Assembly (NCBI RefSeq): GCF_001307295.1
Contig: NZ_CP012700.1
Coordinates: forward strand, 623,001-687,000
Length of the DNA: 64,000 nt
Direction: 5' to 3'
From: Sphingopyxis macrogoltabida
Lineage (GTDB): Bacteria > Pseudomonadota > Alphaproteobacteria > Sphingomonadales > Sphingomonadaceae
The notes under the pieces are model-generated. The model was not told the DNA's origin. It ran no database searches and saw nothing but the letters and a program-made list of their open reading frames with translations. A program made the position numbers and the translations under genes. Shown piece after piece: positions 30,389 to 63,892 of this stretch. Every line of letters starts with the position of its first letter. Within the stretch, counting starts at the first letter, position 1.

Positions 30389-31282
30389 TCAGGCGACGCC
30401 CGGCCTCGCCTGTTCGAGAAGCCAGTCGACGAAGGTTTGCGCCGCGGCGGTCAGCGGGGTCGCTGTCTTCGTCAGCAGGTAGAATTGGTTCGTCGATGGC
30501 ACCCGTCTGTCCGACAGCGTCTGCAACTGCCCAGTTTTCAGCAATTCGCCGAGCAGCGCGGTATGGCCGATCATGAAGCCGCGCCCCTGCAATGTGGCAT
30601 CGACCGTCATCGAATAGAGCGAAAAGGTCTGGGTCTTCAGCGCCTTTGGCGCGGTCGAGCCGGTGCGCGCGATCCAGTCGGCAAAGTCATGCTCCCAATA
30701 GGGATCGATCATCAGCGACGCGCCGACGGGCAGGCCCTGTTCGTCGAACGTCGCGCTTTCGATCAGCTTGGGGCTCGCCACGGGAACCAGTTCATCGAAG
30801 AAGAGCTCGCGATAGTCGCAGCCGGGGAAGGGCGGCTTGCCGTAGCGGATCGCCATGTCGAAGTTCGAGGTGCGCAGGTCGATGATCGTCGGGTCGGCCC
30901 AGATTTCGACGGTCGTGTTCGTTTCGAGCGCGTGAAATTCCTCCATCCGCGGGCCGAGCCAGAGCTGAGCCAGCGACGGCAGCATGGTGACGCGCACCGA
31001 CTTCGATGTGCTGGTCGACGTAATCTCGCGCGTTGCGGTGGTGAGCTGGTCGAGCGCCGGGGCAACCCGTTGCGCATAGCGTTTCCCAGCCTCGGTGAGC
31101 TTTACACCCTGCGGGTAGCGCTGGAACAGGTCGATACGCAGAAAGGCTTCGAGCGCTTTGATCCGCTGGCTCACGGCGCCCGGGGTGACGCCTAGACGGG
31201 CTGCCGCTAGGGCGAAGCTCTCGGTCGCGGCCGTTTCAGCGAAGACGCGCAGCCAGTCGAGATTGGGCGTTTCTCGCAGCAT
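30389..31282 (-). CDS. LysR family transcriptional regulator (GcvA-like), paralogue A
   Basis: LysR regulators activate divergent or nearby genes when bound by a small ligand. The 297-residue protein has the winged helix-turn-helix (NLDWLRVFAETAATESFALA, GVTPGAVSQRIKALEAFLRI, LFQRYPQGVKLTEAGKRYAQ) and a periplasmic-binding-like sensor (IEIWADP-type strand as VEIWADPTIIDLRTSNFD). It is clearly homologous over its full length to the LysR at 60935-61834. I chose the ATG at 31282 by aligning the two; the ribosome site is weak and a longer frame exists to 31357. It is divergent from a TonB receptor, with palindromes between them. Confidence 0.9.
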   Translation of the reverse strand: MLRETPNLDWLRVFAETAATESFALAAARLGVTPGAVSQRIKALEAFLRIDLFQRYPQGVKLTEAGKRYAQRVAPALDQLTTATREITSTSTSKSVRVTMLPSLAQLWLGPRMEEFHALETNTTVEIWADPTIIDLRTSNFDMAIRYGKPPFPGCDYRELFFDELVPVASPKLIESATFDEQGLPVGASLMIDPYWEHDFADWIARTGSTAPKALKTQTFSLYSMTVDATLQGRGFMIGHTALLGELLKTGQLQTLSDRRVPSTNQFYLLTKTATPLTAAAQTFVDWLLEQARPGVA

Positions 31283-31410
31283 CAGCAGACCTGCCGCTTC
31301 GATATGTGATGGATCATTTTCTACCTTCCCCGATTCCCGATTGGCTCGGTTCATCAACAGGCTGGTCTACAGAAGTGAAACCGTCTGTCGACATGGCCAA
31401 TTCTGGGGGA

Positions 31411-31433
31411 GACACCTAGATTTTCTGGGTGTC
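31411..31433. promoter_or_regulatory. Near-perfect palindrome upstream of LysR paralogue A
   Basis: GACACCTAGA and TCTGGGTGTC flank TTT, giving 10-base arms with a single mismatch. It lies about 130 bases upstream of the LysR start, a typical place for an autoregulatory site. Assignment is inference. Confidence 0.5.
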
Positions 31434-31510
31434 CGCATTTTGAACCTGCGCGTCTTGAGGAATGCAGGTGTCAGGAACGAGGATCAGAACAGCTACCCCT
31501 GTGCGCCAGC

Positions 31511-31534
31511 ATTATTGGTTTGCTCAGGCAAACC
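31511..31534. promoter_or_regulatory. Candidate LysR operator with perfect GGTTTGC palindrome
   Basis: GGTTTGC-TCAG-GCAAACC (31517-31534) is a perfect 7-4-7 palindrome preceded by ATTATT. The 13-base prefix ATTATTGGTTTGC is repeated exactly at 27792-27804 before the dioxygenase gene. The location in the LysR/TonB divergent region fits a regulator binding site. Confidence 0.6.
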
Positions 31535-31777
31535 GAAACATTCCTAATTGGGCTCGCGCCCGGTTCGCCGCGCGCCGCCCAGCTCGATGCCGCGGGCCAA
31601 ATAAAAAAGAAAAATTTGCGTTCTTCAAAACATGAAACCGATAGGAGGCATTTTCAGCATAATTTGAATTTATATTATAAAATAATAATAAAATATAACT
31701 TCAGAATTAGTTCTTAAATAGTGATGATAATTGCGGGAACTATTTTGACGTAAATATTTAAAATTTAAGGGGTTGCC

Positions 31778-34099
<2,322 letters not shown>

Positions 34100-34181: not shown

Positions 34182-35747
34182 ATGAACCGCCGCGAACTCC
34201 TCTTTGCGGCCGCGGCAGCGGCGGGTGGGGGGCAGTCGCTTCTGGCGTCCCGGTCCGGTGCCGCTGCGCTGGACAAGCCGGCAGGCGATCCTGCCGATCT
34301 GACGATTGCCGAAGCGGCAGGTGCGATCCGCGCCGGTACGCTGACGGCCAGCGATCTGACGAAGGCCTGCCTTGGCCGGATCGACGCCCGCAACCCGCGG
34401 ATCAATGCGATCATCACGCCGATGCGCGAACAGGCGCTGGCGCAGGCGGCGGCGCTCGACGCAGAGGCGCGCACGGGGCGCTTTCGTTCGGCGCTGCACG
34501 GCGTGCCGATCGCGCTCAAGGATAATATCGATACCGCCGACGCGCCGACGACCAACGCCAGCGCGCTGCTGAAAGATCATGTGCCCGCGAAGGATGCGCA
34601 TGTCGTGCGGCGGTTGCGCGAGGCGGGTGCGATCATCGTCGCTAAGGCCAATCTCGCCGAATTTGCGGTCAGCCCGACCAACGCGACCTCACATTACGGC
34701 CCGGTGCGCAACCCGTGGAGCGAGGACCATGTCTCGGGTGGATCGTCTGGCGGTTCGGGAGCGGCGGTCGCGGCGGGCATGTGTTTCGGCGCGCTCGGCA
34801 CCGACAGCGGCGGGTCGGTGCGCATCCCGTCGGCATGGTGCGGCGTGGTCGGGCTGAAACCGACCGCGGGGCTGGTCTCGAACGGCGGCGCCGGCCCGGG
34901 CATCGCGATCCTCGACACCATCGGCCCGATCGCGCGGACGGTCGAGGATGTGTCGTTACTGCTCGGGGCGATGACCGGCTATGATCCGTTCGATCCCGCG
35001 AGCGTCGAGCGGCCGCGCGAAGATTATGCCGCGGTGCCGGGCCGTCCGGTCTCGGCGCTGCGTATCGGCGTCCCGCGACGTCCCTTCTTCGACGGGCTCG
35101 ATCCCGAGGTTGCGGGTGCGGTCGATACCGCTCTCAAGACCCTCGCGACGATCGCCGGCAGCATCCGCGACGTCGACTTCCGATGGGGCGACCTGCCCGA
35201 AGGTGCGTTCACCGCGCCCGACCTGCTGAGCTACCATAGCCGCCCGTTCGCCGAGCGGCCCGACGCGTATCAGACGCGGACGCGCAACATCATGCAGATG
35301 CTGACCGAAATGCTCGACGATCCGAAAGGCGGTTCCCCGTCGCACAAGCTGGGAGAGCATGTCGCCATGATCCGTTCGATCGCGCAGCGCCAGCGGACGA
35401 TCGACGCGGCATTCGACGGCTTCGACATCCTGGTGTTGCCGACGACCAAGACTTTGCCGCCAACGGTGACGGCTGCCGTCGCGTCCGAATATGGCCCCGG
35501 CGTCGAGCCGCTGTTCTCGATCGAGAACACGATGATCTTCAATCTCGTCGGGCTGCCGGCGCTCAGCGTGCCGTGCGGGCTATCGAAGGACGGCTTGCCG
35601 ATCGGGATGACGATCGCCGGACCACGGTTCAGCGAGGTGACCTTGCTGGCGCTCGGCGCCGCCTATGAACGCCGCGCTGGCTGGCGCGGGAGCCGCCCGG
35701 TCGGGCGGGACGGACGAAACAATCCGGTTGGACGAGGAGAGGGATGA
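34182..35747 (+). CDS. Amidase with Tat-type signal
   Basis: Amidase-signature enzymes hydrolyse carboxamide or aryl-amide bonds with a Ser-Ser-Lys triad. The 521-residue protein starts MNRRELLFAAAAAAGG, a twin-arginine-like signal that suggests export in folded form. Catalytic residues seen are K113 (LKDNIDT), the cis-Ser in HVSGGSSGGSGAAVAAG near 188 and the nucleophile S212 in GTDSGGSVRIPSA. I chose the ATG at 34182 because the upstream frame overlaps the receptor stop and lacks a signal; the ribosome site is weak. The stop overlaps the start of the dipeptidase gene (ATGA), so the two are coupled. Confidence 0.9.
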   Translation: MNRRELLFAAAAAAGGGQSLLASRSGAAALDKPAGDPADLTIAEAAGAIRAGTLTASDLTKACLGRIDARNPRINAIITPMREQALAQAAALDAEARTGRFRSALHGVPIALKDNIDTADAPTTNASALLKDHVPAKDAHVVRRLREAGAIIVAKANLAEFAVSPTNATSHYGPVRNPWSEDHVSGGSSGGSGAAVAAGMCFGALGTDSGGSVRIPSAWCGVVGLKPTAGLVSNGGAGPGIAILDTIGPIARTVEDVSLLLGAMTGYDPFDPASVERPREDYAAVPGRPVSALRIGVPRRPFFDGLDPEVAGAVDTALKTLATIAGSIRDVDFRWGDLPEGAFTAPDLLSYHSRPFAERPDAYQTRTRNIMQMLTEMLDDPKGGSPSHKLGEHVAMIRSIAQRQRTIDAAFDGFDILVLPTTKTLPPTVTAAVASEYGPGVEPLFSIENTMIFNLVGLPALSVPCGLSKDGLPIGMTIAGPRFSEVTLLALGAAYERRAGWRGSRPVGRDGRNNPVGRGEG

Positions 35748-36841
35748 TGAATCGCAGGGAAGCATTCATGGCAGGGCTGGGCGCGGCGGCGGCGTTCGCG
35801 GCGCCGGGCGCGCTGGCGCAGGCCCGGCGCGCGAGCGTGCAGGACGCGCGCAAGCTGCAGGATTCAGCGCCGTTGGTCGAAGGTCTCGACGGTTCGACGC
35901 TCAACGACGAATATCTCGCCAAGCTGGAGGCCGCCGGTCTCGACGTGATTTGCCAGAGCCGGGGCGGGTTCGACAGCTTCGTCGAACTGCATAATTTTCT
36001 CGACCGGCATCCGGACCGGATCGTCCAGGCGCTCACCGTTCGCGACATCCGCGACGCGAACCAGGCGGGCAAGATCGCGCATGTGTCGGGCTGGCAATCG
36101 GCCGAATTTCTGGTGCGCGACGGCGACCCGGTCATGCCCGCGATCGGCAATCTGCGCGGCTACAAGCAGCTTGGTCTGCGCATCGTCGGTCTCGTCTACA
36201 ATGTCGCGGGCCCGTTCGGCGGCGGATCGCTCGACCCCGATGTCGGCCTGACCCGCGCGGGGAAGCGGCTGGTCGAGGAAATCCACAAAGAGCGGCTGGT
36301 GCTCGACGTTGGCGGGCATACGGCGGAGGCGACCTCGTTCGGGGCGCTCGAAATCTCGAAGGGCATGCCGGTCATCTGCTCGCACACCAATTTGCGCTCG
36401 AAGGTCGATAATGCGCGCAACATGACCGACAAGCTGATCGAAGCGATCGCCGCGACCGGCGGCGTGATCGGGCTGACCAAGGTCAATGATTTCCACGCCC
36501 GCGTGCGCAATTCGCCTGAGCCGGTGACGGCGCAGGTCGGGATCGAAAAGCATCTCGACCAATATGACTATATGAAGAAGCTCGTCGGCGTCGATCATAT
36601 CGCGCTCGGTTCCGACTTCATGTGGGGTCGCAAGGATCTGGTCGCGATCATCCCCGAACTGTGGCCGGGCGATGTCTACAGCAACAATCCGCCCTGGTTC
36701 ATGGTCAAGGATACCGAAACAGTGACCGAATATCCCAATGTTACCAAGGGGCTGATGGAACGCGGCTGGACCGACGAGGAAATTCACAAGGTGCTCGGCG
36801 GCAATCTGCTGCGCGTGTTCGAAAAGGTGTGGGGCGCCTGA
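35744..36841 (+). CDS. M19 (membrane dipeptidase)-like protein with altered metal site, Tat-type signal
   Basis: The 365-residue protein begins MMNRREAFMAGLGAAAAFAA, another twin-arginine-like signal. It resembles renal dipeptidase: LDVGGHTAEATSFGALEISK, the metal-site PVICSHTNLRSKVDNARN and DHIALGSDFMWG. Known M19 enzymes bind two zinc ions with an N-terminal His-x-Asp, a Glu, two His and an Asp. Here the N-terminal HxD is not present (LVEGLDGSTLND instead), and the Glu region reads VSGWQSAE, so metal binding and activity may differ. M19 enzymes split dipeptides with D- or dehydro-amino acids and some beta-lactams. It is coupled to the amidase by an ATGA overlap. Confidence 0.82.
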   Translation: MMNRREAFMAGLGAAAAFAAPGALAQARRASVQDARKLQDSAPLVEGLDGSTLNDEYLAKLEAAGLDVICQSRGGFDSFVELHNFLDRHPDRIVQALTVRDIRDANQAGKIAHVSGWQSAEFLVRDGDPVMPAIGNLRGYKQLGLRIVGLVYNVAGPFGGGSLDPDVGLTRAGKRLVEEIHKERLVLDVGGHTAEATSFGALEISKGMPVICSHTNLRSKVDNARNMTDKLIEAIAATGGVIGLTKVNDFHARVRNSPEPVTAQVGIEKHLDQYDYMKKLVGVDHIALGSDFMWGRKDLVAIIPELWPGDVYSNNPPWFMVKDTETVTEYPNVTKGLMERGWTDEEIHKVLGGNLLRVFEKVWGA

Positions 36842-36880: not shown

Positions 36881-38971
36881 ATGAAGATCCTGTCGGGCCG
36901 GGGAAAATATTTCGTCATCGCGGCGGCGCTCGTCGTCGCGGCGATCATTATCAGCCAGCTTGTCTCGTTCGGGGCGCGCAAGGGGGCGGAGGGCGTCGAT
37001 CAGCAACGTTTGCTGAATGCCGCGGCCGAGCCAGCGAACTGGCTGGCGCACGGCGGAACTTTTTCCGAACAGAGGTATAGCGCGCTCGACCAGATCAACG
37101 CTGGAAACGCGGCGAAGCTCGGTCTTGCCTGGACGTTCGAATTCGACACCAATCGCGGACAGGAAGCGACGCCCATCGTCGTCGATGGTGTCATCTATAC
37201 CTCGACCGCTTGGTCGAAGGTCTATGCGCTCGACGGCAAGACCGGCAAGGAGCTCTGGCACTTCGATCCGAAAGTCGATGGCGACCGCGCCGTCTATGGC
37301 TGCTGCGACGTCGTTAACCGCGGCGTTGCGGTGTGGAAGGGGAAGGTCTTCGTTGCTACCTTCGATGGTCGGCTGATCGCGGTCGATGCGAAGACCGGCA
37401 AGCAGATATGGTCGGCGCAGACGACCGACAATTCAAAACCCTATACGATTACCGGCGCGCCGCGCGTGTTCAAGGACAAGGTGATCATTGGCAACGGCGG
37501 CGCCGAGCTGGGCGTGCGCGGTTACGTCACCGCCTATGACACCGAAACGGGCAAGCTCGTCTGGCGTTTCTACACCGTGCCGGGCGACCCGGCGAAAGGC
37601 CCCGACGGCGCCGCGTCCGACCCCATCATGGCGACGGCAGTGAAAAGCTGGGCCGGCAAATGGTATGATTATGGCGGCGGCGGCACCGTCTGGGATTCGA
37701 TCGTCTACGACCCCGATTTCGATCAGGTCTATCTGGGCGTCGGCAACGGCTCGCCGTGGAACCGGCGGGTGCGGTCGGACGGCAAGGGCGATAATCTGTT
37801 CCTCGCCTCGATCGTCGCGGTCGACGCCGATACCGGCAAGTATAAATGGCATTATCAGGGATCGCCGGGCGATAGCTGGGACTATACGCATACCCAGCAG
37901 ATGATGCTTGCGACGCTGCCGGTTGGCGGCAAGGAGCGCAAGGTGTTGATGCAGGCGCCGAAGAACGGCTTCTTCTATGTCATCGACCGCGAAACCGGGA
38001 AGCTTGTGTCGGCCAAGCCTTTTGTCAGGCAGAGCTGGGTCGATCATATCGACCTTAAGACCGGCCGTCCGGTGATGAGCGCCAACGCTTATTATGAAGA
38101 CGGCGTGAAGATGATCGAGCCTGCATCGGTCGGCGGTCACAACTGGCAGCCGATGTCGTACAGCCCGCGCACCGGCCTCGTCTATATCCCGACCGTGCAG
38201 TGGAGCCTGAAATATGATCAGGACCCGGCGTATAAATTTCGCCCCGGACGGCTCAATATCGGCGCGCAGGTCTTGCTCAACGAGAAGGACCCGAATGGCT
38301 CGGGTGCGCTGATCGCGTGGGATCCGGTGAAGCAGCGTGAAGTCTGGCGCGTCGAGCAGCCCGAGATGATCAACGGCGGCACGCTGGCGACCGCGGGCGA
38401 CCTTGTCTTTGCGGGCAATGCGCATGGCGAGTTCACGGCGTTCGGCGCGAAGGACGGCAAGAAGCTCTGGACCTACAAGCAGCCGGTCGGGATCATGGCC
38501 GGGCCGGTCAGCTACAGCATCGACGGCGAGCAATATGTCGCGGTGCTGGTCGGCAAGGGCGGCGGCGCGATGGGGATTCCCGACACCAAAAGGCCGCGCC
38601 TGCCGCAGCCGAACGGACGGATCATGGTGTTCAAGCTCGGCGGCAATGCCGCCTGGCCGAAGCAGGACCTGACCCCGGCGCCCGCCAATCCGCCCAAGGA
38701 ACGCTTCGCAGCCGACAAGGTCAACGCCGGCGCGATCGTCTATGGCGAAAATTGCGCCGCCTGCCACGAAGGCCTTGCCGCACCGGACCTGCGCCGGTCG
38801 GGCGCGCTCGCCGACGCTGCGGTCTGGAAGAGCATCGTCATCGACGGTGCACTCAAGGACAATGGCATGGTGAGCTTCGCGCGCTGGATTACCCCCGAAC
38901 AGGCCGAAACCATCCGCGCCTATATGGGCGAACAGGCGCGCCTGCTGCAGCAGGAAGAAGCGAAGAAATGA
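36881..38971 (+). CDS. PQQ-dependent quinohaemoprotein dehydrogenase A
   Basis: These periplasmic enzymes oxidise alcohols with PQQ and pass electrons to a haem c. The 696-residue protein has an N-terminal membrane anchor or signal (FVIAAALVVAAIIISQL), an eight-bladed propeller (WSKVYALDGKTGKELWHFDP; MQAPKNGFFYVIDRETGKL), adjacent cysteines in VYGCCDVVNRG near 142 as in PQQ enzymes, the likely catalytic Asp in DSWDYTHTQ near 331, and a C-terminal cytochrome c with CAACH near 625. It resembles type II alcohol dehydrogenases. The PQQ biosynthesis genes are not in this window. A homologous enzyme is encoded at 45086-47179. Its placement next to hydrolases suggests oxidation of a released alcohol. 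Confidence 0.9.
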   Translation: MKILSGRGKYFVIAAALVVAAIIISQLVSFGARKGAEGVDQQRLLNAAAEPANWLAHGGTFSEQRYSALDQINAGNAAKLGLAWTFEFDTNRGQEATPIVVDGVIYTSTAWSKVYALDGKTGKELWHFDPKVDGDRAVYGCCDVVNRGVAVWKGKVFVATFDGRLIAVDAKTGKQIWSAQTTDNSKPYTITGAPRVFKDKVIIGNGGAELGVRGYVTAYDTETGKLVWRFYTVPGDPAKGPDGAASDPIMATAVKSWAGKWYDYGGGGTVWDSIVYDPDFDQVYLGVGNGSPWNRRVRSDGKGDNLFLASIVAVDADTGKYKWHYQGSPGDSWDYTHTQQMMLATLPVGGKERKVLMQAPKNGFFYVIDRETGKLVSAKPFVRQSWVDHIDLKTGRPVMSANAYYEDGVKMIEPASVGGHNWQPMSYSPRTGLVYIPTVQWSLKYDQDPAYKFRPGRLNIGAQVLLNEKDPNGSGALIAWDPVKQREVWRVEQPEMINGGTLATAGDLVFAGNAHGEFTAFGAKDGKKLWTYKQPVGIMAGPVSYSIDGEQYVAVLVGKGGGAMGIPDTKRPRLPQPNGRIMVFKLGGNAAWPKQDLTPAPANPPKERFAADKVNAGAIVYGENCAACHEGLAAPDLRRSGALADAAVWKSIVIDGALKDNGMVSFARWITPEQAETIRAYMGEQARLLQQEEAKK

Positions 38972-39021: not shown

Positions 39022-40908
39022 GTGAATGTGACCCATATGAACAAGCCGGCGCGCCGACGCATGACGGCGCTTCGTCTTGCCGCCGCGGGGGCGCTTGTCC
39101 TCGCCGGGCTCGGCGGCGCACCGGCATTTGCCTTCGAGGCGCCCGTCGCGGCAGCGCCCGCGGTCGATGCCGAGACGGCGCGCCTCAACGCCTGGTTCGA
39201 CGCGAAGTTCGAGGAGGAAATGGCGTTCAGTCCGATGTCGCGCGGCTATCAGGGCGACAAAACCGACTATGACAAGATCGACGATTTTTCGGAGGAGGCC
39301 GAGGACCGGAAAATGGACTGGCAGCGCGGGTCGGTCGAGGAGATGAAGGCGAAGTTCGACCGCGCCAAACTGCCCGAGGACGCGCAGCTTTCCTACGATC
39401 TCTGGATCTACCGCTATGAGGATGCGGCGGGCTACGCAAAGTTCCGGCGCAACAATTATGTCTTCCAGCAGATGTACGGGCCGCACACGCGCATCCCGCA
39501 ATTCCTGATGCAGGTGCATAAGGTCGACGATGTGGCGGACATGGACGCCTATATCGTGCGGATCGGCGAAGTCGCGCGCGCGCAGTTGCAATTGCTCGAC
39601 ATCGCAAAAAAAAATGCCGAGGCAGGGTCGCGGGTGCCGCGCTTTTCCTATGAAGCGATGATCGGGCAGGCGCGCGCACTGATCACCGGCGCGCCGTTCG
39701 GCGGCGAGGGCGAAAGCGCGATCTGGTCGGATGCCACCGGGAAAATCGACGGGCTGGTCAAGGCGGGCAAGATCGATCAGGCGAAGGCCGATGCCTATAA
39801 GGAAGCCGCGCGGCAGGCGCTGACCACGAAATGGCTGCCCGCCTATCAGGCGCTGATCGCGTGGTTCGAGTCCGAGTTGCCGAAGGCCGATGCGGTCGCG
39901 ACCGGGGTCGGCAAGAATCCGAACGGCAAGGCCTATTACGACATGCTGCTCGTCAGTTCGACGACGACCGACCTCACCGCCGAACAGATCCATCAGATCG
40001 GCCTCGACGAGGTCGCGCGGATCAAGGGCGAGATGGAGAAGATCAAGGAGCAGGTCGGCTTCAAGGGGACGCTGCAGGATTTCTTCAAATTCGTCCGCGA
40101 CGATCCGCGCTTCTATTATCCGAACACCGATGCGGGGCGGCAGCAATATATAGATGCGGCGACCGCGCACATCGCCTTCATGAAGCAGCAACTGCCGAAA
40201 TATTTCGGCATTCTGCCCAAGGCCGACGTGATCGTGAAACGCGTCGAACCCTATCGCGAGATCGCCGGTGGCGCGCAGCATTATTATATGTCGACCCCCG
40301 ACGGATCGCGGCCGGGCGTCTTCTACGCGCATCTGCTCGACATGAAGTCGATGCCGATCCCGCAGCTCGAGGTGATCGCCTATCATGAAGCGCTGCCCGG
40401 ACATCACATGAACTTTGCGATCGCGCAGGAATTGACCGACATCCCGAACTTCCGCAAATTTCTGTACGTCAATGCCTATCAGGAGGGCTGGGGCCTTTAC
40501 ACCGAGAAGCTCGGCAAGGAGATGGGCGCTTACAAGGATCCCTATTCGGACTTTGGCCGCCTGACGACCGAGATCTGGCGCGCGATCCGGCTGGTTGTCG
40601 ACACCGGGCTCCATTCCAAGGGCTGGACCGAAGATCAGGCGATCAAATATTTCACCGAAAATTCGGCCGCTTCCGAAGGCCAGATCAAAGCCGAGGTACG
40701 GCGTTACATCATCATGCCGGGGCAGGCCACCGGCTACAAGATCGGCATGATCCAGATGGAGAAGCTGCGCAAGAAAGCCGAAGACGCGCTGGGCGACAAG
40801 TTCGATATCAAGGGCTTCCACGACACGATCCTCGGCCGCGGGCAGGCGCCGCTCGACCTGCTCGAACGCCGCGTCGATCAGTGGATCGCAAGGCAAAAGG
40901 CGGCGTGA
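39022..40908 (+). CDS. DUF885 family metallopeptidase-like protein
   Basis: The 628-residue exported protein has a signal (LAAAGALVLAGLGGAPAFA) and the all-helical DUF885 fold. The hallmark AYHEALPGHHMNFAIAQ contains H455, E456 and the pair GHH at 460-461, which can bind zinc; VNAYQEGWGLYTEKLGKEMG supplies a second conserved Glu. Family members have been linked to peptidase activity, but few are characterised. The start is uncertain: GTG at 39022 has GGGAG seven bases upstream, while ATG at 39037 would shorten the signal only slightly. It lies 50 bases after the dehydrogenase and is followed by a strong hairpin, so it may end the first transcript of the island. Confidence 0.82.
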   Translation: MNVTHMNKPARRRMTALRLAAAGALVLAGLGGAPAFAFEAPVAAAPAVDAETARLNAWFDAKFEEEMAFSPMSRGYQGDKTDYDKIDDFSEEAEDRKMDWQRGSVEEMKAKFDRAKLPEDAQLSYDLWIYRYEDAAGYAKFRRNNYVFQQMYGPHTRIPQFLMQVHKVDDVADMDAYIVRIGEVARAQLQLLDIAKKNAEAGSRVPRFSYEAMIGQARALITGAPFGGEGESAIWSDATGKIDGLVKAGKIDQAKADAYKEAARQALTTKWLPAYQALIAWFESELPKADAVATGVGKNPNGKAYYDMLLVSSTTTDLTAEQIHQIGLDEVARIKGEMEKIKEQVGFKGTLQDFFKFVRDDPRFYYPNTDAGRQQYIDAATAHIAFMKQQLPKYFGILPKADVIVKRVEPYREIAGGAQHYYMSTPDGSRPGVFYAHLLDMKSMPIPQLEVIAYHEALPGHHMNFAIAQELTDIPNFRKFLYVNAYQEGWGLYTEKLGKEMGAYKDPYSDFGRLTTEIWRAIRLVVDTGLHSKGWTEDQAIKYFTENSAASEGQIKAEVRRYIIMPGQATGYKIGMIQMEKLRKKAEDALGDKFDIKGFHDTILGRGQAPLDLLERRVDQWIARQKAA

Positions 40909-45028: not shown

Positions 45029-45085
45029 CGTTCGTTATTTTTGGAAATTTGATGGTGTTCGATGATGAATGAAGGGATTTCGGTC

Positions 45086-55232: not shown

Positions 55233-57557
55233 ATGAATTGTCCGGTCATTTTCGCACCCCGTTTGCTTAGAAGGGCGCGTCTCTCGATGGCGGCGTTTGT
55301 CGCAGTCTCGGCTGCGCTCGCTCCGGCGGCGCAGGCGGCGCCGCGCTATGAAGCGACGATCACCCGCACCACCTTCGGCGTGCCGCACGTCGAAGCCGAG
55401 GATTTCGGCGGGCTGGGGTTCGGCGCCGCCTATGCGCAGGCGCAGGACAATATCTGTCTGATGGCGGACGGCTATGTCAGCGCGTCGGGCCAGCGTTCGC
55501 GATACTTCGGTCCGGACGGCGCGACGGTGATCGGGCTCGTCCCGGCGAAGAATATCGACAGCGACCTCTATTATGCGACGATGCAGGACATCGCGGCGCT
55601 GCGCGCCGGTTTTGCCAAGACGTCGAAGGATTCAAGGGCGCTGATCGAGGGCTGGGTGGCGGGGTATAACCGCTTCCTGCGCGACAATCGGGACAAGCTA
55701 CCCGCCGGATGCGCGGGCCAGCCATGGGTGCGCGAAATTACCCGCGACGATGTCCTGCGCTCGCTCAACGGCTTCACCATGCTGGCGGGATCGGCGATGG
55801 CGGCCGCGAAAATCGCGGAGGCTGCACCGCCCGCTGCCGAAGCTGCTACGGCTGCGGCCAAGCCGGTCGCCGCGGCGCCGCAGTTCGCCGACGACATCCG
55901 GGAATCGATGAAGCTGGGCAGCAACGGCTGGGCGTTCGGCGGCGATGCCACGATGAACGGCAAAGGGCTCGTCGTCGGCAACCCGCATTTTCCCTGGTAC
56001 GGTCCCAACCGCTTCTACCAGATCCACCTGACGATCCCCGGCAAGTTCGATGTCGCGGGGGCGGCGATCACCAACCAGCCCTATGTCGGGATCGGCTTCA
56101 ACAGGGATGTCGCGTGGACGCATACCGTCGACACCGCGGCGCACATGACCCTGTTCAAGCTGACGCTCGATCCCGCCGATCCCACCGCCTATATCGTCGA
56201 CGGCAAGCGCGTGCCGATGGAACGCCGCGAGGTCGCCGTCGCGATGAAGGACGGGGCGCCCGTCGTGCGGACGCTGTTCCAGTCGCGTTACGGCCCGATC
56301 CTCTCGATGCCCGGCACCGACTATGCGTGGACGCGGCAGACCGCCTATGCCCTCGCCGATGCCAACAAGGGCAATGTGCGGAGCGGCGAGGGCTATCTCG
56401 CCATGGCGCGGGCGCGGAATGTCGGCGACATCCACGCCGCGCTGATCCGATATCTGCATGCGCCGTTCCTCAACACCCTCGCCGCCGACCGCAAGGGCGA
56501 CGCGCTCTATGCCGACATCAGCCCCGCGGCCAATGTCTCGGCCGAGCGCTTTGCCGCCTGCGGCACGATGTCGCCGCCGACCCCCGGTTTTCTGCAGCGG
56601 CTCTATGTCCTCGACGGCGGCCGGTCGGCCTGCGATTGGGAAAAGACGCCGGGCACCCCGGTGCCGGGACTGCTCCCTGCGTCGAAGATGGCCGCGATCT
56701 ATCGGCGCGACTATGTCCAGAACAGCAACGACAGCTATCGCTGGGCGAATATCGAAGCGCCGATCGCCGAACTGGGGCCGATGATGGGTCCCGATTTCCT
56801 GTTGCTGCCCAGCATGCGCACCCGGTCGGGGCTCCAAGAAATCCGGGGCGTCCTGCAATCGGGCAAGTTCGATATCGACGTCGGCATCCGGACGATGCTC
56901 GGCAACAAGAATTTCGCCGGCAACCTCGTCATGCCCGCGGTCCTGAAGCTGTGCGAGCGTCCCGAGGCGCCGAAACCCGCCTGCGCAGCGCTCGCCAAAT
57001 GGGACGGCAAGGCCGAACTCGACAGCCGCGGGGCGATGCTGTTTGCAATTTTCTGGTCGAAGATCGAGCGTCGGGCCAATCTGTGGGCAGATGCATTCGA
57101 CCGCAACGACGTGGTGGGTACGCCGCGCACGCTCGCCATCGATGGCGCCGCAGGCGCCGCGCTGCTCGCCGACCTTGCTTTCGCGGCCGATACGCTGACC
57201 AAGATGGGCATCGCGCTCGATGCGCCGTTGGGTGAGGTGCAGTTCGCCGAACGCGGCGATGAGCGCATCCCGATTTCGGGGTCGCCCGCCGGGGTGCTCA
57301 ACTATACCGCTGCGCTGCCGGTCAAGGGCGGTTTCGGCGTCGTCCACGGGGCGAGCTATGTCCAGTCGGTCAGCTTCGACGACAAAGGGCCGGTCGCGAA
57401 GGCGATCCTGACCTATTCGCAATCGACCGACCCTGCGTCGCCGCACTACGCCGATCAGACGCGCGAATTTTCGAAGCTGGCGCTGCATCCCTATCCCTTC
57501 TCGAAGGAGGAGATTGCGGCGCAGGCGATCGGGGGACCGGTGACGATCCGTCAATGA
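55233..57557 (+). CDS. Penicillin acylase/AHL acylase-type (S45) amidase
   Basis: S45 enzymes are secreted Ntn hydrolases that remove acyl groups from amides such as penicillins or N-acyl-homoserine lactones. The 774-residue precursor has a signal (FVAVSAALAPAAQAAP), an alpha-chain segment (YEATITRTTFGVPHVEAEDF, GAAYAQAQDNICLMADGYVS), an Ala-rich linker and the beta-chain start GSNGWAFGG, with S230 as the autoprocessing nucleophile. GNPHFPWYGPNRFYQIHLTI and VAWTHTVDTAAH are typical of the AHL-acylase/aculeacin branch. GGAGAAGAA precedes the ATG. The three genes that follow (CPBP protease, P1 peptidase and more) are on the same strand with short gaps. Confidence 0.9.
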   Translation: MNCPVIFAPRLLRRARLSMAAFVAVSAALAPAAQAAPRYEATITRTTFGVPHVEAEDFGGLGFGAAYAQAQDNICLMADGYVSASGQRSRYFGPDGATVIGLVPAKNIDSDLYYATMQDIAALRAGFAKTSKDSRALIEGWVAGYNRFLRDNRDKLPAGCAGQPWVREITRDDVLRSLNGFTMLAGSAMAAAKIAEAAPPAAEAATAAAKPVAAAPQFADDIRESMKLGSNGWAFGGDATMNGKGLVVGNPHFPWYGPNRFYQIHLTIPGKFDVAGAAITNQPYVGIGFNRDVAWTHTVDTAAHMTLFKLTLDPADPTAYIVDGKRVPMERREVAVAMKDGAPVVRTLFQSRYGPILSMPGTDYAWTRQTAYALADANKGNVRSGEGYLAMARARNVGDIHAALIRYLHAPFLNTLAADRKGDALYADISPAANVSAERFAACGTMSPPTPGFLQRLYVLDGGRSACDWEKTPGTPVPGLLPASKMAAIYRRDYVQNSNDSYRWANIEAPIAELGPMMGPDFLLLPSMRTRSGLQEIRGVLQSGKFDIDVGIRTMLGNKNFAGNLVMPAVLKLCERPEAPKPACAALAKWDGKAELDSRGAMLFAIFWSKIERRANLWADAFDRNDVVGTPRTLAIDGAAGAALLADLAFAADTLTKMGIALDAPLGEVQFAERGDERIPISGSPAGVLNYTAALPVKGGFGVVHGASYVQSVSFDDKGPVAKAILTYSQSTDPASPHYADQTREFSKLALHPYPFSKEEIAAQAIGGPVTIRQ

Positions 57558-57595: not shown

Positions 57596-58489
57596 ATGAA
57601 CGACACGCGTCAGGGATCGGTAATCTGGACCTATCTGGTGCTCACGGTGGTTTTCTGTGCGCTGCCCTATTTCCTGATCGGTTACACGGGCGAGGTCGGC
57701 GGCGGCAACGCCGGCTATGTCACTGCGCTGATGTGGGGGCCGGCGCTCGCCGCGATCGTCACCGTGGCGTGGAAGAAGCTCGACTGGGCCTCGCTCGGCT
57801 TCGCGTGGCGCGATACGCGCTCGTCATGGTACAGCTATCTGCTGCCGATCGGTTATGCGGCGGTCGCCTATCTGATCATCTGGTCGACGGGGATGGGCGG
57901 TTTCGCGGAGCCGGAAAGCATCGCGGCGCTGGCCGACCGGCTCGGCTGGACCTTCACCGATCCGGGGCGCTTCGTTCCTGCCTATTTCCTGTTCGTCGGC
58001 ATCACCGGCATCATCGCGGGGACAGCGCGCGGGCTGGGCGAGGAGATCGGCTGGCGCGGATTCCTGGCGCCGCGGCTGCACGACAAGTTCGGCTTTACCG
58101 GAGGCGCGGCGGTGACCGGCGTCATCTGGACGCTGTGGCATGTCCCGCTGATCCTGTTTGCCAATTATAACAGCGGGGCACCGCAATGGTTCGCGCTCAC
58201 CTGCTTCTTCGTCATGGTCATGAACCTCAGCTTTATCATGGCGTGGTTCCGGTTGAAGTCCGGCAGCGTCTGGCCTGCCGCGATCCTGCACGGCAGCCAC
58301 AACCTTTATATCCAAACGATCTACACGCCGCTGACCGCGCCGAAGGGTGACATCACCGCCTATGCGATCGACGAATTCGGTTTCCTCATTCCGCTGACGA
58401 CCTTCGTCGTCGCGCTGTTGCTATGGTTGCGGCGCGACCGCGCGATTGCCGCCTATGATGCACGCCGGGCGGCGGGGGAAGCGAGCTGA
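57596..58489 (+). CDS. CPBP family intramembrane glutamic endopeptidase
   Basis: The CPBP family includes Rce1-like CAAX proteases and the microcystin-linearising MlrA. The 297-residue protein has about eight hydrophobic helices and the three motifs: EEIGWRGFLAP with adjacent glutamates near 149-150, TLWHVPLILF with a His near 182, and LHGSHNLYIQT with a third His near 231. It therefore looks active. It is shorter than MlrA (about 336 residues), and the other mlr genes are absent, so I do not call it MlrA. A GGGGAG site precedes the ATG. Position between an S45 acylase and a P1 peptidase suggests a role in processing the same substrate. Confidence 0.87.
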   Translation: MNDTRQGSVIWTYLVLTVVFCALPYFLIGYTGEVGGGNAGYVTALMWGPALAAIVTVAWKKLDWASLGFAWRDTRSSWYSYLLPIGYAAVAYLIIWSTGMGGFAEPESIAALADRLGWTFTDPGRFVPAYFLFVGITGIIAGTARGLGEEIGWRGFLAPRLHDKFGFTGGAAVTGVIWTLWHVPLILFANYNSGAPQWFALTCFFVMVMNLSFIMAWFRLKSGSVWPAAILHGSHNLYIQTIYTPLTAPKGDITAYAIDEFGFLIPLTTFVVALLLWLRRDRAIAAYDARRAAGEAS

Positions 58490-58515
58490 TTTACGATGAA
58501 ACAAGGGGATTGGTC

Positions 58516-59769
58516 ATGACGGCACGGCGTTTCGGATGGGCACTGGCTTCGGTCATGGCGGTCGGATTGCTCGCACCGGGCGCGGCGGCGGAGGAGCCGC
58601 GCGCCCGCGACCTCGGCGTGCCTTTCCATGGCGAGCCCGGCCCGCTCAACGCGATTACCGATGTGCCGGGGGTCGAGGTCGGCCACACGACCTTGATCGC
58701 CGGCGACGGCCCGCTCAAGGTTGGCGAAGGTCCGGTGCGGACCGGGGTCACGGCGATCCTGCCGCGCGGCAAGAATTCCACCGTGCCGGTGTTCGGCGCG
58801 TGGGCGACGGCCAATGCGGCGGGCGAAATGACCGGCACGATCTGGATGGAGGAACGCGGCTCGTTCGATGGGCCGGTGATGATCACCAACACGCACAGCG
58901 TCGGTGTGGTGCGCGATGCCGTGGTCAAATATCTGGCCGACAGCAAGGCGTGCTGCCTGTTCTACACCCCGGTCGTCGCCGAGACCTGGGACGGCTTCCT
59001 CAACGATGTGAATGGCCAGCATGTGAAGACCGAACATGCCTTGCAGGCCATCGCGACCGCTGCCGGCGGGCCGGTGCCCGAGGGCAATGTCGGCGGCGGT
59101 ACCGGGATGGTGTGCGCCGGGTTCAAGGGCGGCATCGGCACCGCGTCGCGCAAGGTCGAAATCGGCGACCGCAAATATACCGTCGGCGTGCTCGTCCAGT
59201 GCAATTACGGCGCGCGGCCGCTGCTCCGCATCGCCGGCGCCCCGGTTGGACAGGAACTAGCGACCAGCTACCTGCCGTGCAGCGACCTGCCGGGCAAAGC
59301 GGTCTACAAGCCCGAACGCCGCTGCACGCCGATCGACAAGAAGCCCTATGAGCCCGAAGGGTCGATCATCGTCGTGATCGCGACCGACATCCCGCTGTTG
59401 CCGCACCAGCTCAAGCGCATCGCCAAGCGGCCGACGCAGACGATCGGGCGGATGGGCGATATCAGCCATAATCTGTCGGGCGACATCTTCATGGCCTTCT
59501 CGACCGCCAATGCGGGCGCGCTCGATGAAAGCGCCGCGGGCGTGCAGGCGGTCTCGGCTATCTCGAATAGCGAGATAACCAAGGTGTTCGAGGCGGCAGT
59601 CGATGCGACCGAGGAATCGATCGTCAACGCGCTGGTTGCGGCGAAGACGATGACCGGACGCGACGGCGTCACGGTCCATGCGCTGCCGCACGACGAGCTC
59701 CGCACGATCCTTGCCAAATATGGACGTCTGCCCGCCGCGACGGGCAAGCCCGCCGCCAAACGGAAATAG
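58516..59769 (+). CDS. P1 family peptidase (DmpA/BapA-like)
   Basis: P1 peptidases are self-processing and cut N-terminal residues, including D-amino acids and beta-amino acids, from peptides and amides. The 417-residue protein has a signal (VMAVGLLAPGAAAEEPRARD), the N-terminal INAITDVPGVEVGHT-type strand (as GPLNAITDVPGVEVGHTTLI), GNVGGGTGMVCAGFKGGIGT near 195, and the processing site PEGSIIVVIATDIPL with S283 as the likely nucleophile, then LLPHQLKRIAKRP. I chose the ATG at 58516, six bases after GGGGA. BapA-type enzymes are known from sphingomonads growing on beta-peptides. It follows the CPBP gene by 26 bases. Confidence 0.9.
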   Translation: MTARRFGWALASVMAVGLLAPGAAAEEPRARDLGVPFHGEPGPLNAITDVPGVEVGHTTLIAGDGPLKVGEGPVRTGVTAILPRGKNSTVPVFGAWATANAAGEMTGTIWMEERGSFDGPVMITNTHSVGVVRDAVVKYLADSKACCLFYTPVVAETWDGFLNDVNGQHVKTEHALQAIATAAGGPVPEGNVGGGTGMVCAGFKGGIGTASRKVEIGDRKYTVGVLVQCNYGARPLLRIAGAPVGQELATSYLPCSDLPGKAVYKPERRCTPIDKKPYEPEGSIIVVIATDIPLLPHQLKRIAKRPTQTIGRMGDISHNLSGDIFMAFSTANAGALDESAAGVQAVSAISNSEITKVFEAAVDATEESIVNALVAAKTMTGRDGVTVHALPHDELRTILAKYGRLPAATGKPAAKRK

Positions 59770-59784
59770 CGGCGGGCGAACCGG

Positions 59785-60783
<999 letters not shown>

Positions 60784-60840
60784 CTACCATCAGAGGAACT
60801 ATTGCTGTATCCTCCTCCGGGCTTGCCCATGCGGAGCGCG

Positions 60841-60876
60841 GCCTTATGATTCTCTATGTGTCCGGGGACATAAGGC
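60841..60876. promoter_or_regulatory. Inverted repeat in the pip/lysR divergent region
   Basis: GCCTTATG (60841-60848) and CATAAGGC (60869-60876) form a perfect 8-base inverted repeat around a 20-base centre that itself contains TGTCCGGGGACA. It lies between the divergent proline iminopeptidase and LysR starts and is a candidate autoregulatory site. Confidence 0.45.
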
Positions 60877-60934
60877 GCGCGAACGGCGTGCCTGTGCAAT
60901 CGACTAATTTTGCTGCTGAGGAAGATATATTCTG

Positions 60935-61834
60935 ATGCCGAGGGAGCTACCGAATCTGGACTGGCTGCGCGTCTTCGCGTCGACCGCTGCAACCGAGAGC
61001 TTCGCGCTCGCCGCCGGCGAACTCAGCGTGACGCCGGGTGCGGTCAGCCAGCGGATCAAGGCGCTCGAGGCCTATCTCGGCGTCGAACTGTTTCAGCGCT
61101 ATCCGCAGGGCGTCCGGCTGACCGAGGCGGGGAAGCGCTATGCGCAGCGCGTGCTTCCACCGCTCGAGCAGCTTCTCATGGCGACGCGCGACATCACGGC
61201 CTCGGGCGGCACCAAGGCGGTGCGGCTGACGATCCTGCCGGCGCTCGCGCAACTGTGGCTCGGTCCGCGGATCGAGGAGTTTCATAAAGCGCATGCCAAT
61301 ACGACGATCGAGATCTGGGCCGACCCGGTGATCGTCGACCTGCGCACATCGAACTTCGATGTCGCCATCCGCTATGGCCAGCCGCCCTTTCCGGGCTGCG
61401 ATTCCCGCCCGCTGTTTTTCGACGAGCTCGTTCCCGTCGCGGCGCCCTCGCTCATCGAGACTGCGGAGCGCGACGAGCACGGGCTGCCGGTCGGAATGCC
61501 GCTGATGCTCGACACCTATTGGGCGAATGATTTCGAGCAGTGGCTGCAGCATACCGGCCACGCGCGCCCCGCGAATCTGATCACCCAGACCTTCTCGCTC
61601 TATTCGATGGTCGTCGAGGCGACGCTGAGCGGACGCGGTTTCATGATCGGTCATACGTCGGTGCTGTCCGACCTGATCGCACAGGGACGGCTGCAACCGC
61701 TTTCGGACCAGCGGGTGGCAGCGGGCAACCAATTCTACCTGTTGACCAAGGCGTCGTCGCCGCTGTCCGACATCGCCGAAACCTTCATCGACTGGATCGT
61801 CGAGCAGGCGACGCCGGACGGCGCGGCGGAGTGA
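60935..61834 (+). CDS. LysR family transcriptional regulator (GcvA-like), paralogue B
   Basis: The 299-residue protein has the same layout as the LysR at 30389-31282. By eye well over half of the residues are identical (for example TAATESFALAA, VTPGAVSQRIKALEA, LTEAGKRYAQRV, RTSNFDVAIRYGQPPFPGC, GRGFMIGHTSVL). The near-identical recognition helix implies the two bind similar sites, while changes in the sensor domain leave room for different ligands. AGGAAG twelve bases upstream gives a moderate ribosome site. It is divergent from the proline iminopeptidase gene and 108 bases ahead of the CocE-like gene. Confidence 0.92.
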   Translation: MPRELPNLDWLRVFASTAATESFALAAGELSVTPGAVSQRIKALEAYLGVELFQRYPQGVRLTEAGKRYAQRVLPPLEQLLMATRDITASGGTKAVRLTILPALAQLWLGPRIEEFHKAHANTTIEIWADPVIVDLRTSNFDVAIRYGQPPFPGCDSRPLFFDELVPVAAPSLIETAERDEHGLPVGMPLMLDTYWANDFEQWLQHTGHARPANLITQTFSLYSMVVEATLSGRGFMIGHTSVLSDLIAQGRLQPLSDQRVAAGNQFYLLTKASSPLSDIAETFIDWIVEQATPDGAAE

Positions 61835-61942
61835 CGGCAAGAGGCAGCAATTCTGGTCCAGAGGCGCAGGAATAATCGCATTGCGCCATCTCCGCCCCGC
61901 GCGCACCCTTGGAAAAACTGGGCGTGCCGGGGACATAGGAAT

Positions 61943-63892
61943 ATGATGAAATCGCTGCTGGTCGTGCTGACGCTTGCTGCCGTGCTTCCCCTGCCCGTGA
62001 TGTTGCAGGCGGCGGGCGCCGAGCCGATTGTCAGGCCGGGCGGCGACATTCCGGGCGATTACAGCCCGCTGCCGGCGGACGCCGATTACGAACGGCGCGA
62101 AATGATGATCCCGATGCGCGACGGGGTGAAGCTTTATACGGTCATCCTCGTCCCCAAGGGAGCGAAAGACGCGCCGATCGTGCTTAACCGCACGCCCTAT
62201 AATGCCACGGCGCGGGTGTTGCGGACGACGAGCCCGGTAATGGTCGACGCGGTGCCCTTCGAGGATCGCGAGTTCGCGAAGGCGGGCTATATCCGCGTGT
62301 GGCAGGATATTCGCGGCAAGTATAAATCGGAAGGCGATTATGTCGTCACGCGGCCCATGGTCGGTCCGCTGAACGATACCGGCGTCGACAATGGTACCGA
62401 CGCCTATGACACGATCGACTGGCTGGTGAACAAGGCGAACCTGCCCGAAAGCAACGGCCGCGTCGGCATAATCGGTTCGTCCTATGAGGGCACGACGGTC
62501 GTCCAGGCGCTCATCAAGCCGCATCCGGCGGTCAAGGTCGCGGCGCCCGAGAGCCCGCTCGTCGATGCGTGGACGGGCGACGACTGGTTCCACAACGGCG
62601 CCTTCCGGCAGGTGATGGCCGATTATATTGCGCAGCAAACGGGCGACCGGTCGATCGCCAAGGCTGCGTCGCGCGGCGGTTACGACGATTATGACAACTT
62701 CCGCGCCGCCGGATCGGCGGGCGATTGGGGCAAGGCGCGCGGATACGACCGTCTGCCCTTCTGGCGGCGGTTACAGGAGCATCCGGCCTATGATGCGGTG
62801 TGGCAGGGGCTGGCGCTCGACAAGCTGCTCGCGGCGAACCCGTCGGACGTGCCGACCCTGTGGGTCCAGCCCTTGTGGGACCAGGATGATATCTATGGCG
62901 CAATCCGTTCGTGGGAGGTGCTGAAGGCGAAGGGCAAGATGGGCAACAACCACCTGCTGCTGGGGCCCTGGTCGCACAGCCAGGTGAACCGCAACGACGT
63001 CGGCCGCAACCTCGGCCCGCTCCAGTGGAGCAGCAATACGATCACCCAATATTGGCGTGACATGATCCTGCCCTTCTTCAACGAGCATCTGCAGGGTGGT
63101 CCGCCTGCCAATATTCCGGCGGTGACCGCTTACAATACCGGCGAAGACCGCTGGGAACGGCTGTCCAACTGGCCGCTCGCCTGCGAAACGGGATGCCCGG
63201 CGCCGCTGACGCCGATCTATCTCGGCGCCAATGGCGGGCTGGGCTTTCAGACCGGAGCGGCCGGCGGCGACGCCTATGTCGCCGATCCTGCCAAGCCGGT
63301 TCCGCATTATCCGCGGCCGGTCAATTTCGACGATGGTAGCTGGCAGAGCTGGCTGACCAGCGATCAGCGTTCGTTCGACGGGCGTCCCGACGTGATGACG
63401 TACCAGACCGAAGTGCTGACCGAAGCGGTGCGCGTGTCGGGTACGCCGATCGCCGACATCTTTGCGCGCACCACCGGCACCGATGGCGATTTCGTCGTCA
63501 AGGTGATCGATGTCTATCCCGCGACAAATTCGAGCGAGCCGAAGATGGGCGGCTACCAGCTTGCGATCGCGCTCGAAATCTTTCGCGGCCGCTACCGCGA
63601 GAGTTTTGAGCATCCCTCGGCAATCCCCGCGGGGAAGGTGCAGCAATATAAGTTTCGCCTGCCGACGGTGAACCACGTCTTCAAGCCGGGGCACCGGATC
63701 ATGGTGCAGGTCCAGTCGAGCCTCTTTCCCTATTATGACCGCAATCCGCAGACCTATGTCCCCAACATCTTCCACGCGAAGCCATCGGACTATCGGCCCG
63801 CGACGGTGACGATCGAACGCGGCGGCAAGACGCCCAGCCGTGTGTGGCTGCCCGTCGTTCCGCTCGACCAGTCGACGGCGATGGCTCGCTAA
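61943..63892 (+). CDS. CocE/NonD family hydrolase, alpha-amino-acid ester hydrolase-like
   Basis: The 649-residue exported protein has a signal (VVLTLAAVLPLPVMLQAAGA), an alpha/beta-hydrolase with the serine motif IIGSSYEGTTVVQALI (S180 in GSSYEG), a helical cap (DAWTGDDWFHNGAFRQ), and a C-terminal jelly-roll domain (VNHVFKPGHRIMVQVQSSLF). It resembles alpha-amino-acid ester hydrolases and glutaryl-7-ACA acylase-type enzymes, which use the GSSYEG motif and act on beta-lactam side chains and amino-acid esters; X-Pro dipeptidyl peptidases share the fold. The start may be 61943 or 61946. It follows LysR paralogue B on the same strand. Confidence 0.88.
   Translation: MMKSLLVVLTLAAVLPLPVMLQAAGAEPIVRPGGDIPGDYSPLPADADYERREMMIPMRDGVKLYTVILVPKGAKDAPIVLNRTPYNATARVLRTTSPVMVDAVPFEDREFAKAGYIRVWQDIRGKYKSEGDYVVTRPMVGPLNDTGVDNGTDAYDTIDWLVNKANLPESNGRVGIIGSSYEGTTVVQALIKPHPAVKVAAPESPLVDAWTGDDWFHNGAFRQVMADYIAQQTGDRSIAKAASRGGYDDYDNFRAAGSAGDWGKARGYDRLPFWRRLQEHPAYDAVWQGLALDKLLAANPSDVPTLWVQPLWDQDDIYGAIRSWEVLKAKGKMGNNHLLLGPWSHSQVNRNDVGRNLGPLQWSSNTITQYWRDMILPFFNEHLQGGPPANIPAVTAYNTGEDRWERLSNWPLACETGCPAPLTPIYLGANGGLGFQTGAAGGDAYVADPAKPVPHYPRPVNFDDGSWQSWLTSDQRSFDGRPDVMTYQTEVLTEAVRVSGTPIADIFARTTGTDGDFVVKVIDVYPATNSSEPKMGGYQLAIALEIFRGRYRESFEHPSAIPAGKVQQYKFRLPTVNHVFKPGHRIMVQVQSSLFPYYDRNPQTYVPNIFHAKPSDYRPATVTIERGGKTPSRVWLPVVPLDQSTAMAR

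Follow-up and report, generated by a model that had tools for sequence, protein, structure and literature searches.

Catabolism of 2-aminoisobutyric acid (Aib) has been described in Rhodococcus wratislaviensis, where the aib cluster comprises AibH1H2GF, AibT, AibC, AibA, and AibR, and brings together a permease, an enzyme annotated as serine hydroxymethyltransferase (SHMT), an alanine dehydrogenase, and a LysR regulator (PMC7782822). Aib is also consumed by the DgdA systems of Burkholderia cepacia and Saccharomyces (DGD1/DGD2), and dialkylglycine decarboxylase (DGD) and Aib have both been linked to peptaibols (PMC10169451). In addition, PMC7918591 describes, citing Nozaki et al., alpha-methylserine aldolase and hydroxymethyltransferase, pyridoxal 5'-phosphate (PLP) enzymes of the SHMT kind; the aldolase is independent of tetrahydrofolate (THF) and links alpha-methyl-L-serine with D-alanine. 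Here, we describe a gene island of Sphingopyxis macrogoltabida that resembles these systems in part. It lies in a 64,000-nt stretch (hereafter the window) at positions 623,001-687,000 of contig NZ_CP012700.1, in a genome of 5.1 Mb. We consider it fairly probable that the island is a regulon, linked to LysR, by which the bacterium scavenges peptides with alpha,alpha-dialkyl amino acids (most likely peptaibiotics, or peptaibols, of fungi), with Aib converted through alpha-methylserine to alanine and formaldehyde. The sequence supports the existence of the regulon and its link to Aib well, and we infer the peptaibiotic substrate and each reaction.

As in the Rhodococcus cluster, Aib catabolism would proceed through alpha-methylserine, and a permease, an SHMT-like PLP enzyme, an alanine dehydrogenase, and a LysR gene occur together (the likeness is one of gene family). 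Unlike in Rhodococcus, a single 2-oxoglutarate (2OG) dioxygenase of the PhyH family would replace the three-component monooxygenase, aldol cleavage is proposed rather than oxidation and decarboxylation, and the island is linked to receptors and peptidases. No ferredoxin or reductase partner of the AibH1H2GF type was recognized among the island genes scanned (no AibH sequence comparison was made). DGD, the enzyme of the DgdA systems, does adjoin this LysR in two of the relatives; however, in S. macrogoltabida a different module occupies its place, within an island of peptide hydrolysis genes. PhyH has the fold and iron ligands of GriE and trans-3/4-proline hydroxylase H11 and, like them, probably acts on a free amino acid, although identity is 34-40% in structural alignments and its substrate is predicted; its context is presumably catabolic, whereas that of GriE is biosynthetic. 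For the SHMT-like enzyme, the likeness to alpha-methylserine aldolase is by description, and the activity is a prediction.

In the pathway that we propose, TonB-dependent receptors (TBDRs) would bring the peptide into the periplasm, the exported S45 acylase would remove an N-acyl cap, and the exported M13, DUF885, amidohydrolase, M19, S58, and S15 enzymes would cut the chain, with pyrroloquinoline quinone (PQQ) dehydrogenases perhaps oxidizing a C-terminal amino alcohol. Cutting would continue in the cytoplasm by prolyl aminopeptidase. There, PhyH would hydroxylate a methyl group of Aib to give alpha-methylserine, which the SHMT-like enzyme would split into alanine and formaldehyde. Alanine dehydrogenase (together with alanine racemase in some relatives) would lead from alanine to pyruvate and ammonia, and in some relatives S-(hydroxymethyl)glutathione dehydrogenase would remove formaldehyde. 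In the two relatives with DGD, this enzyme would take over from PhyH and the SHMT-like enzyme. A crude check of N termini indicates export signals in the receptors and most hydrolases, and none in PhyH, the SHMT-like protein, or prolyl aminopeptidase.

The two LysR proteins that flank most of the hydrolase genes, called paralogous in the preliminary description, are 70% identical over 297 aa, whereas the next LysR of the same genome reaches 29%. Both have the HTH_1 and LysR substrate domains, and the GcvA model gives 217 bits, below its cut-off of 288. Speculatively, two paralogs serving one type of box could respond at different thresholds. The island LysR occurs in four of the 60 nearest genomes (own included), each with two copies, and in five of 397 genomes of a family sample, again counting the own genome (in family-sample searches, scoring was limited to the best four to six candidates per genome). 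Further carriers among the matches listed are Sphingopyxis sp. JAI108, Sphingomonas colocasiae, and a Caulobacter metagenome-assembled genome (MAG). Altogether, at least 10 genomes carry it at 61% identity or more: S. macrogoltabida (G000), G035, G010, G018, JAI108 (G448), S. colocasiae (G308/G449), G389, G319, G115, and the Caulobacter MAG (G450). A plasmid origin was considered and rejected: of 72,556 plasmid records, none contained a relative of the LysR at E ≤ 1e-50, and three had SHMT-like matches at E ≤ 1e-60.

The evidence that ties the island to Aib comes from these relatives. An Aib-type module stands at the LysR locus in all 10 genomes: PhyH with the SHMT-like gene in eight, and DGD in two. 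A close SHMT-like homolog is lacking from both of the latter (G115 and the Caulobacter MAG), and a class III aminotransferase adjoins LysR instead (in G115 divergently, ∼130 bases away). The best PDB match of this protein is DGD in both cases, at 570 bits versus 224 for the best other family in the Caulobacter MAG and at 545 versus 231 bits in G115; against NCBIfam the Caulobacter protein matches only other aminotransferase models, all under cut-off. The identity of DGD had been set down as a test of the Aib substrate before the result was obtained, as had that of a Zn-alcohol dehydrogenase as formaldehyde dehydrogenase. DGD was not found in the S. macrogoltabida genome at E ≤ 1e-130. In the family samples, PhyH occurs in four of 387 genomes and DGD in one of 397, and jointly these are the same five genomes that carry the LysR; the chance of such a coincidence is 1.4e-11 for five random genomes of 387, a calculation in which neither relatedness nor the slight differences among the samples are considered.

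The aldol route is also consistent with other genes found there. Among them, alanine dehydrogenase is present in S. macrogoltabida (TIGR00518 at 502 bits against a cut-off of 392, transhydrogenase models at no more than 156 bits; PDB 416 versus 113 bits), G035, and G389, and in the last it directly follows PhyH and the SHMT-like gene. Alanine racemase scores above the TIGR00492 cut-off at the S. colocasiae and G389 loci, formaldehyde dehydrogenase (a Zn-alcohol dehydrogenase) scores above the TIGR02818 cut-off at those of JAI108 and G319, and an amino-acid permease is found in S. macrogoltabida, G035, JAI108, and S. colocasiae. The presence of DGD in the same place by the same regulator and the position of alanine dehydrogenase in G389 point to Aib and alanine.

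PhyH itself is assigned by PF05721 (119.7 bits against a cut-off of 22). H110, D112, H205, and R216 are invariant across 35 sequences; the first three correspond to the HxD...H iron ligands and R216 to the arginine that binds 2OG. The closest solved relatives are GriE, a free leucine hydroxylase, and proline hydroxylase. Alignment of the SHMT-like enzyme with GlyA of the same genome shows that the PLP lysine is conserved and that the Tyr-Glu motif of the folate site is not, YAEGYPGRRYYQG of GlyA being aligned with PSLGYPGAKYEMG; these motif residues are Y55 and E57 in Escherichia coli GlyA numbering. The NCBIfam SHMT model gives 270.5 bits, under its cut-off of 335. We had first placed a hydroxymethyltransferase that depends on folate at this step, and because the motif is missing, it was replaced by an aldolase.

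PhyH adjoins the SHMT-like gene in eight of the 10 LysR genomes (in G018, PhyH is cut by a contig end). In a genus sample of 40 genomes, 36 of them tested for LysR, PhyH occurs in four, the same four that have two LysR copies. By protein name, relatives of both enzymes are present in Sphingopyxis fribergensis. The SHMT-like family has other neighbors elsewhere. When 20 of 23 further alphaproteobacterial loci were compared, no gene group was common to at least three of them, except the SHMT-like gene and one group in three loci. At one locus (L172:9294-13003), a 62% identical homolog lies directly beside an S45 acylase gene. In five of the 20 (L165, L166, L168, L174, and L175), a LysR gene of 30-35% identity lies beside the homolog, and the pairing of LysR with an SHMT-like gene may, judging by such loci, be older than the use of Aib.

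The island genes also share a LysR-box-like motif. The motif was chosen by eye from the upstream regions of eight loci, and the matrix was built from only four sites upstream of PhyH (own, G010, JAI108, and G319). Four genomes outside the matrix (G389, G115, the Caulobacter MAG, and S. colocasiae) contain seven matches of at least 14 bits in 16,228 upstream-intergenic bases and none in 131,381 genic bases. With 1000 column-permuted matrices run on the same set, the number of matches averaged 0.50 and never exceeded 4. In G389 the sites precede the M19, PQQ, DUF885 (divergent from PhyH), and ABC-M1 operons, and elsewhere they lie in the gap between DGD and LysR (G115), in that between permease and LysR (S. 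colocasiae), and 5' of a TonB receptor (Caulobacter MAG). A strict form of the pattern has three matches in the entire S. macrogoltabida genome, all in the island (at PhyH, between LysR1 and TBDR3, and at alanine dehydrogenase), plus three in JAI108 and one in G389, always inside islands. The backwards pattern, used as a control, has one match across six genomes, in G010. LysR would presumably bind these sites, and any direction of regulation is likewise a prediction. Outside the window, an 18-bit site at L006:14045 that does not match the strict pattern precedes an open reading frame (ORF) at L006:14265-15089.

Gene families were assigned by Pfam, NCBIfam, and PDB scans of selected genes rather than of every ORF of every neighborhood. 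The preliminary description of the window had listed at least 10 peptidase, amidase, or related hydrolase genes, two TonB receptors, an ABC unit, and two PQQ dehydrogenases; the Pfam and NCBIfam scans bear this list out, and the content, its linkage to LysR, the exchange of Aib modules among relatives, and the common box can be read directly from the DNA (Table 1). The HbpS/GlcG-like gene had been overlooked, however, as had the PhyH and SHMT-like pair left of LysR1, which forms the left edge of the island at 27.8-30.1 kb, and the rightward extension, which reaches ∼2.7 kb beyond the window end through an amino-acid permease and alanine dehydrogenase. Conserved synteny in relatives had been named as a check, and its outcome is mixed. 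Content and regulator linkage do recur, but the order of genes is conserved in only one other Sphingopyxis (G035), in which island genes are 94-100% identical except for TBDR4. That receptor is represented in G035 (L016/L017) by two pieces of 43% and 65% identity between flanks of 94-99%; the gene is either interrupted there or has been exchanged for that of another receptor.

The eight further genomes have subsets of the island genes in reshuffled order, some at loci cut at contig ends. Counting the own genome, a TonB receptor is found at the loci of eight of the 10 genomes; DUF885, the amidohydrolase (in G010 a fragment of 76 residues where the contig ends), and the ABC-M1 fusion are each found in seven, in varying order; and PQQ dehydrogenase and M19 are each found in six. 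It should be noted that genes of the relatives were called with a simple codon-usage script, so starts or genes can be overlooked (e.g., LysR2 of JAI108).

Several observations count against the regulon and the pathway proposed here. Leucine and proline, not Aib, are the substrates of the nearest solved relatives of PhyH. The SHMT-like family is wider than the island, with 49-64% identical homologs in 23 of 384 other Alphaproteobacteria; among the 20 neighborhoods of these genes that were examined, none contains PhyH, and an S15-like match (27%) and an S45 gene are present in one each. Some hydrolases are sparsely distributed: within the loci of the 10 genomes, S45, S15, and prolyl aminopeptidase occur in four each, S58, CPBP, and M13 in three each, and the amidase in two. 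Whole-genome searches at E ≤ 1e-30 found no S45 in JAI108, G010, or the Caulobacter MAG, and beyond S. macrogoltabida and G035 the M19 matches are only 27-33% identical. Absences at the loci are weak evidence because several loci end at contig ends. The box, too, has points against it. The regions from which the motif was picked included the later test genomes, 20 control loci without LysR have six matches of at least 14 bits in 382,469 bases (at 16 bits or more there are none, versus six in 157,576 held-out bases), and the S. macrogoltabida window with its flanks has four genic matches of at least 13 bits. No match of at least 13 bits was found in the two contigs of G018, and a genome scan did not find the strict site in G115, S. 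colocasiae, or G010.

Some of these facts suit an explanation in which PhyH and the SHMT-like enzyme act on proline, leucine, or another aliphatic amino acid from ordinary peptides, and the island is a general scavenging regulon. The affinities of PhyH with leucine and proline hydroxylases, the several peptidases that resemble proline-directed ones, and the SHMT-like homologs in unrelated contexts all argue for this, but DGD at the same position by the same regulator and the G389 gene order argue against it, and hydroxyproline is not known to be an SHMT-type substrate; we judge this explanation unlikely. Also quite improbable, in our estimate, is that the regulon does serve Aib peptides and that alpha-methylserine is oxidized to 2-amino-2-methylmalonate, with the SHMT-like protein as an AibC-type decarboxylase that yields L-alanine, as in R. 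wratislaviensis. The lack of a folate motif agrees with this, as AibC is SHMT-annotated, is without hydroxymethyltransferase activity, and is encoded near the genes of a permease, an alanine dehydrogenase, and a LysR regulator (PMC7782822). However, that route needs neither formaldehyde dehydrogenase nor alanine racemase, each present at two loci; no AibD1/AibE-like pair was recognized in the genes scanned (no dedicated search was made); and SHMT-like homologs at E ≤ 1e-55 are found in just two of 301 Rhodococcus-family genomes, at 33-34% identity and with no alanine dehydrogenase match in the 18 kb of sequence compared (AibC itself was not located).

Alternatively, an Aib-catabolic module and an unrelated hydrolase cluster could be neighbors by chance. 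Conservation of order in G035 only, and the presence of the hydrolases at the loci of two to seven of the 10 genomes, would be expected in that case. We nevertheless consider it very unlikely, as the same box lies 5' of operons for peptidases, receptors, and PQQ enzymes in genomes outside the matrix, and as DUF885, the amidohydrolase, and ABC-M1 keep recurring in differing orders. The preliminary description had inferred a dedicated pathway for a single non-standard peptide or N-acylated compound. The shared boxes and recurring content favor such a pathway, co-regulated and serving one class of these peptides. It had guessed at beta-lactams, beta-peptides, or cyclic peptides, whereas the linked amino-acid enzymes point to Aib instead. 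S58 does resemble BapA/DmpA, and LysR2 does match the PenR model, albeit at 106 bits and far under the cut-off of 625. Even so, S58 is present at the loci of only three of 10 genomes and is no closer to beta-peptidyl aminopeptidase than to the 1b65 aminopeptidase, and no beta-lactamase or beta-amino-acid enzyme was recognized among the scanned genes; such chemistry is highly improbable.

Three more specific ideas were dropped. Maturation of a pyoverdine-like siderophore was suggested by the PvdQ-like S45 protein, the PLP enzyme, and M19, which we had likened to PvdM; no nonribosomal peptide synthetase was seen among the scanned genes (no genome-wide search was made). The CPBP protein was considered as an MlrA-like microcystinase, but its best named model is MmRce1, with a score of 47 bits where the cut-off is 425. 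Degradation of the chloramphenicol type, in which the substrate is oxidized and deacylated and the phenylserine is split, was set aside because of the replacement by DGD.

Table 1. Features of the proposed peptide-scavenging island, in window coordinates
Feature	Position	Strand	Basis or remark
LysR-box-like site ATTATTGGTTTGCG, 5' of PhyH	27792..27805	+	motif scan; 1 of 3 strict matches in 5.1-Mb genome
PhyH-family Fe(II)/2OG dioxygenase, GriE/proline-hydroxylase clade; proposed Aib hydroxylase	27907..28689	+
SHMT-like PLP enzyme without the Glu of the folate site; proposed alpha-methylserine aldolase not requiring THF; start inferred	28772..30094	+	PF00464
LysR1, GcvA-like regulator	30389..31357	-	PF00126/PF03466
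LysR-box-like site between LysR1 and TBDR3, containing GGTTTGC-TCAG-GCAAACC (inverted repeat, 7 bp, perfect)	31511..31534	+
TBDR3, TonB-dependent receptor	31778..34099	+
Amidase-signature hydrolase, N terminus like that of twin-arginine translocation (Tat) substrates	34182..35747	+	PF01425
M19 dipeptidase, Tat-like N terminus	35747..36841	+	PF01244
PQQ1, PQQ alcohol dehydrogenase with cytochrome c domain	36881..38971	+	TIGR03075 664 bits, cut-off 480
DUF885 protein, export signal (crude check)	39037..40908	+	PF05960; 65-99% orthologs in 7 of 10 LysR genomes, own included
Amidohydrolase, prolidase/Xaa-Pro-dipeptidase-like, export signal (crude check)	41129..42565	+	PF01979
M13 metallopeptidase, export signal (crude check)	42646..44727	+
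PQQ2, PQQ alcohol dehydrogenase with cytochrome c domain, lipoprotein-like N terminus	45065..47179	+	TIGR03075 560 bits, cut-off 480
HbpS/GlcG-like protein, export signal (crude check)	47191..47664	+	PF03928
ABC ATPase	48129..49007	+	PF00005
ABC-2 permease/M1 aminopeptidase-like fusion	49018..52641	+	PF12698 (below its cut-off) and PF01433; in 7 of 10 LysR genomes
TBDR4, TonB-dependent receptor	52697..55072	+
S45 N-acylase, PvdQ-like	55233..57557	+	family clear by PF01804; PvdQ equivalog model 638 bits, below cut-off 950
CPBP/Rce1-like membrane protein	57596..58489	+	PF02517
S58 aminopeptidase (DmpA/BapA family), export signal (crude check)	58510..59769	+	PDB 1b65 aminopeptidase 328 bits, 3n2w beta-peptidyl aminopeptidase 315 bits
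S33 prolyl aminopeptidase, no export signal seen	59785..60741	-	TIGR01249 396 bits, cut-off 260
Weaker LysR-box-like site, between S33 gene and LysR2	60894..60910	-	14.4 bits
LysR2, GcvA-like regulator	60935..61834	+
S15/CocE-NonD hydrolase	61943..63892	+
Amino-acid permease, outside window	64018-65418		directly right of S15 gene
Alanine dehydrogenase, outside window	65480-66658		own strict box at 65443

Additional genes of possible interest surround the island. A second peptide module lies just upstream (17420-27410) and includes a minus-strand fusion of cyanophycinase-like (S51) and asparaginase-2 parts, two further TonB receptors, and an S9 dipeptidyl-peptidase-5-like enzyme; it is kept in G035, as far as that locus was compared. 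To the right, beyond alanine dehydrogenase and a DUF2339 gene, there are molybdenum hydroxylase-type genes (flavin adenine dinucleotide-binding and molybdopterin subunits) and an XdhC-family gene, at ∼70-75 kb in window numbering (L006:6383-11367) and thus outside the window. These could oxidize amino aldehydes. Farther left, ARAGORN reports a transfer-messenger RNA gene at 13221-13566 (asterisk-marked, tag ANDNEALALAA), which we read as the permuted type.

Peptaibols withstand proteases (PMC10169451, PMC10487733), and among the matches listed in a literature search (titles and starts of abstracts, mostly open-access), there was no account of bacterial peptaibol breakdown or of this route for Aib. 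The Aib-degrading module is probably new. The chances seem even to us that the island represents a complete system for the consumption of peptaibiotics, with a third route for Aib (hydroxylation by a 2OG dioxygenase, then aldol cleavage without folate) that can be exchanged for DGD beside one LysR, the same LysR also controlling decapping, peptidase, and amino-alcohol-oxidizing enzymes. The island supplies enzymes that can be tested as a set, together with a regulator, a candidate site for its binding, and two Aib modules that can replace each other. If the proposed pathway is correct, it would add an Fe/2OG enzyme that hydroxylates the inert methyl group of Aib, which would be useful for production of alpha-methylserine, and it could account for the ways in which bacteria use the antibiotics of Trichoderma as food or render them harmless.

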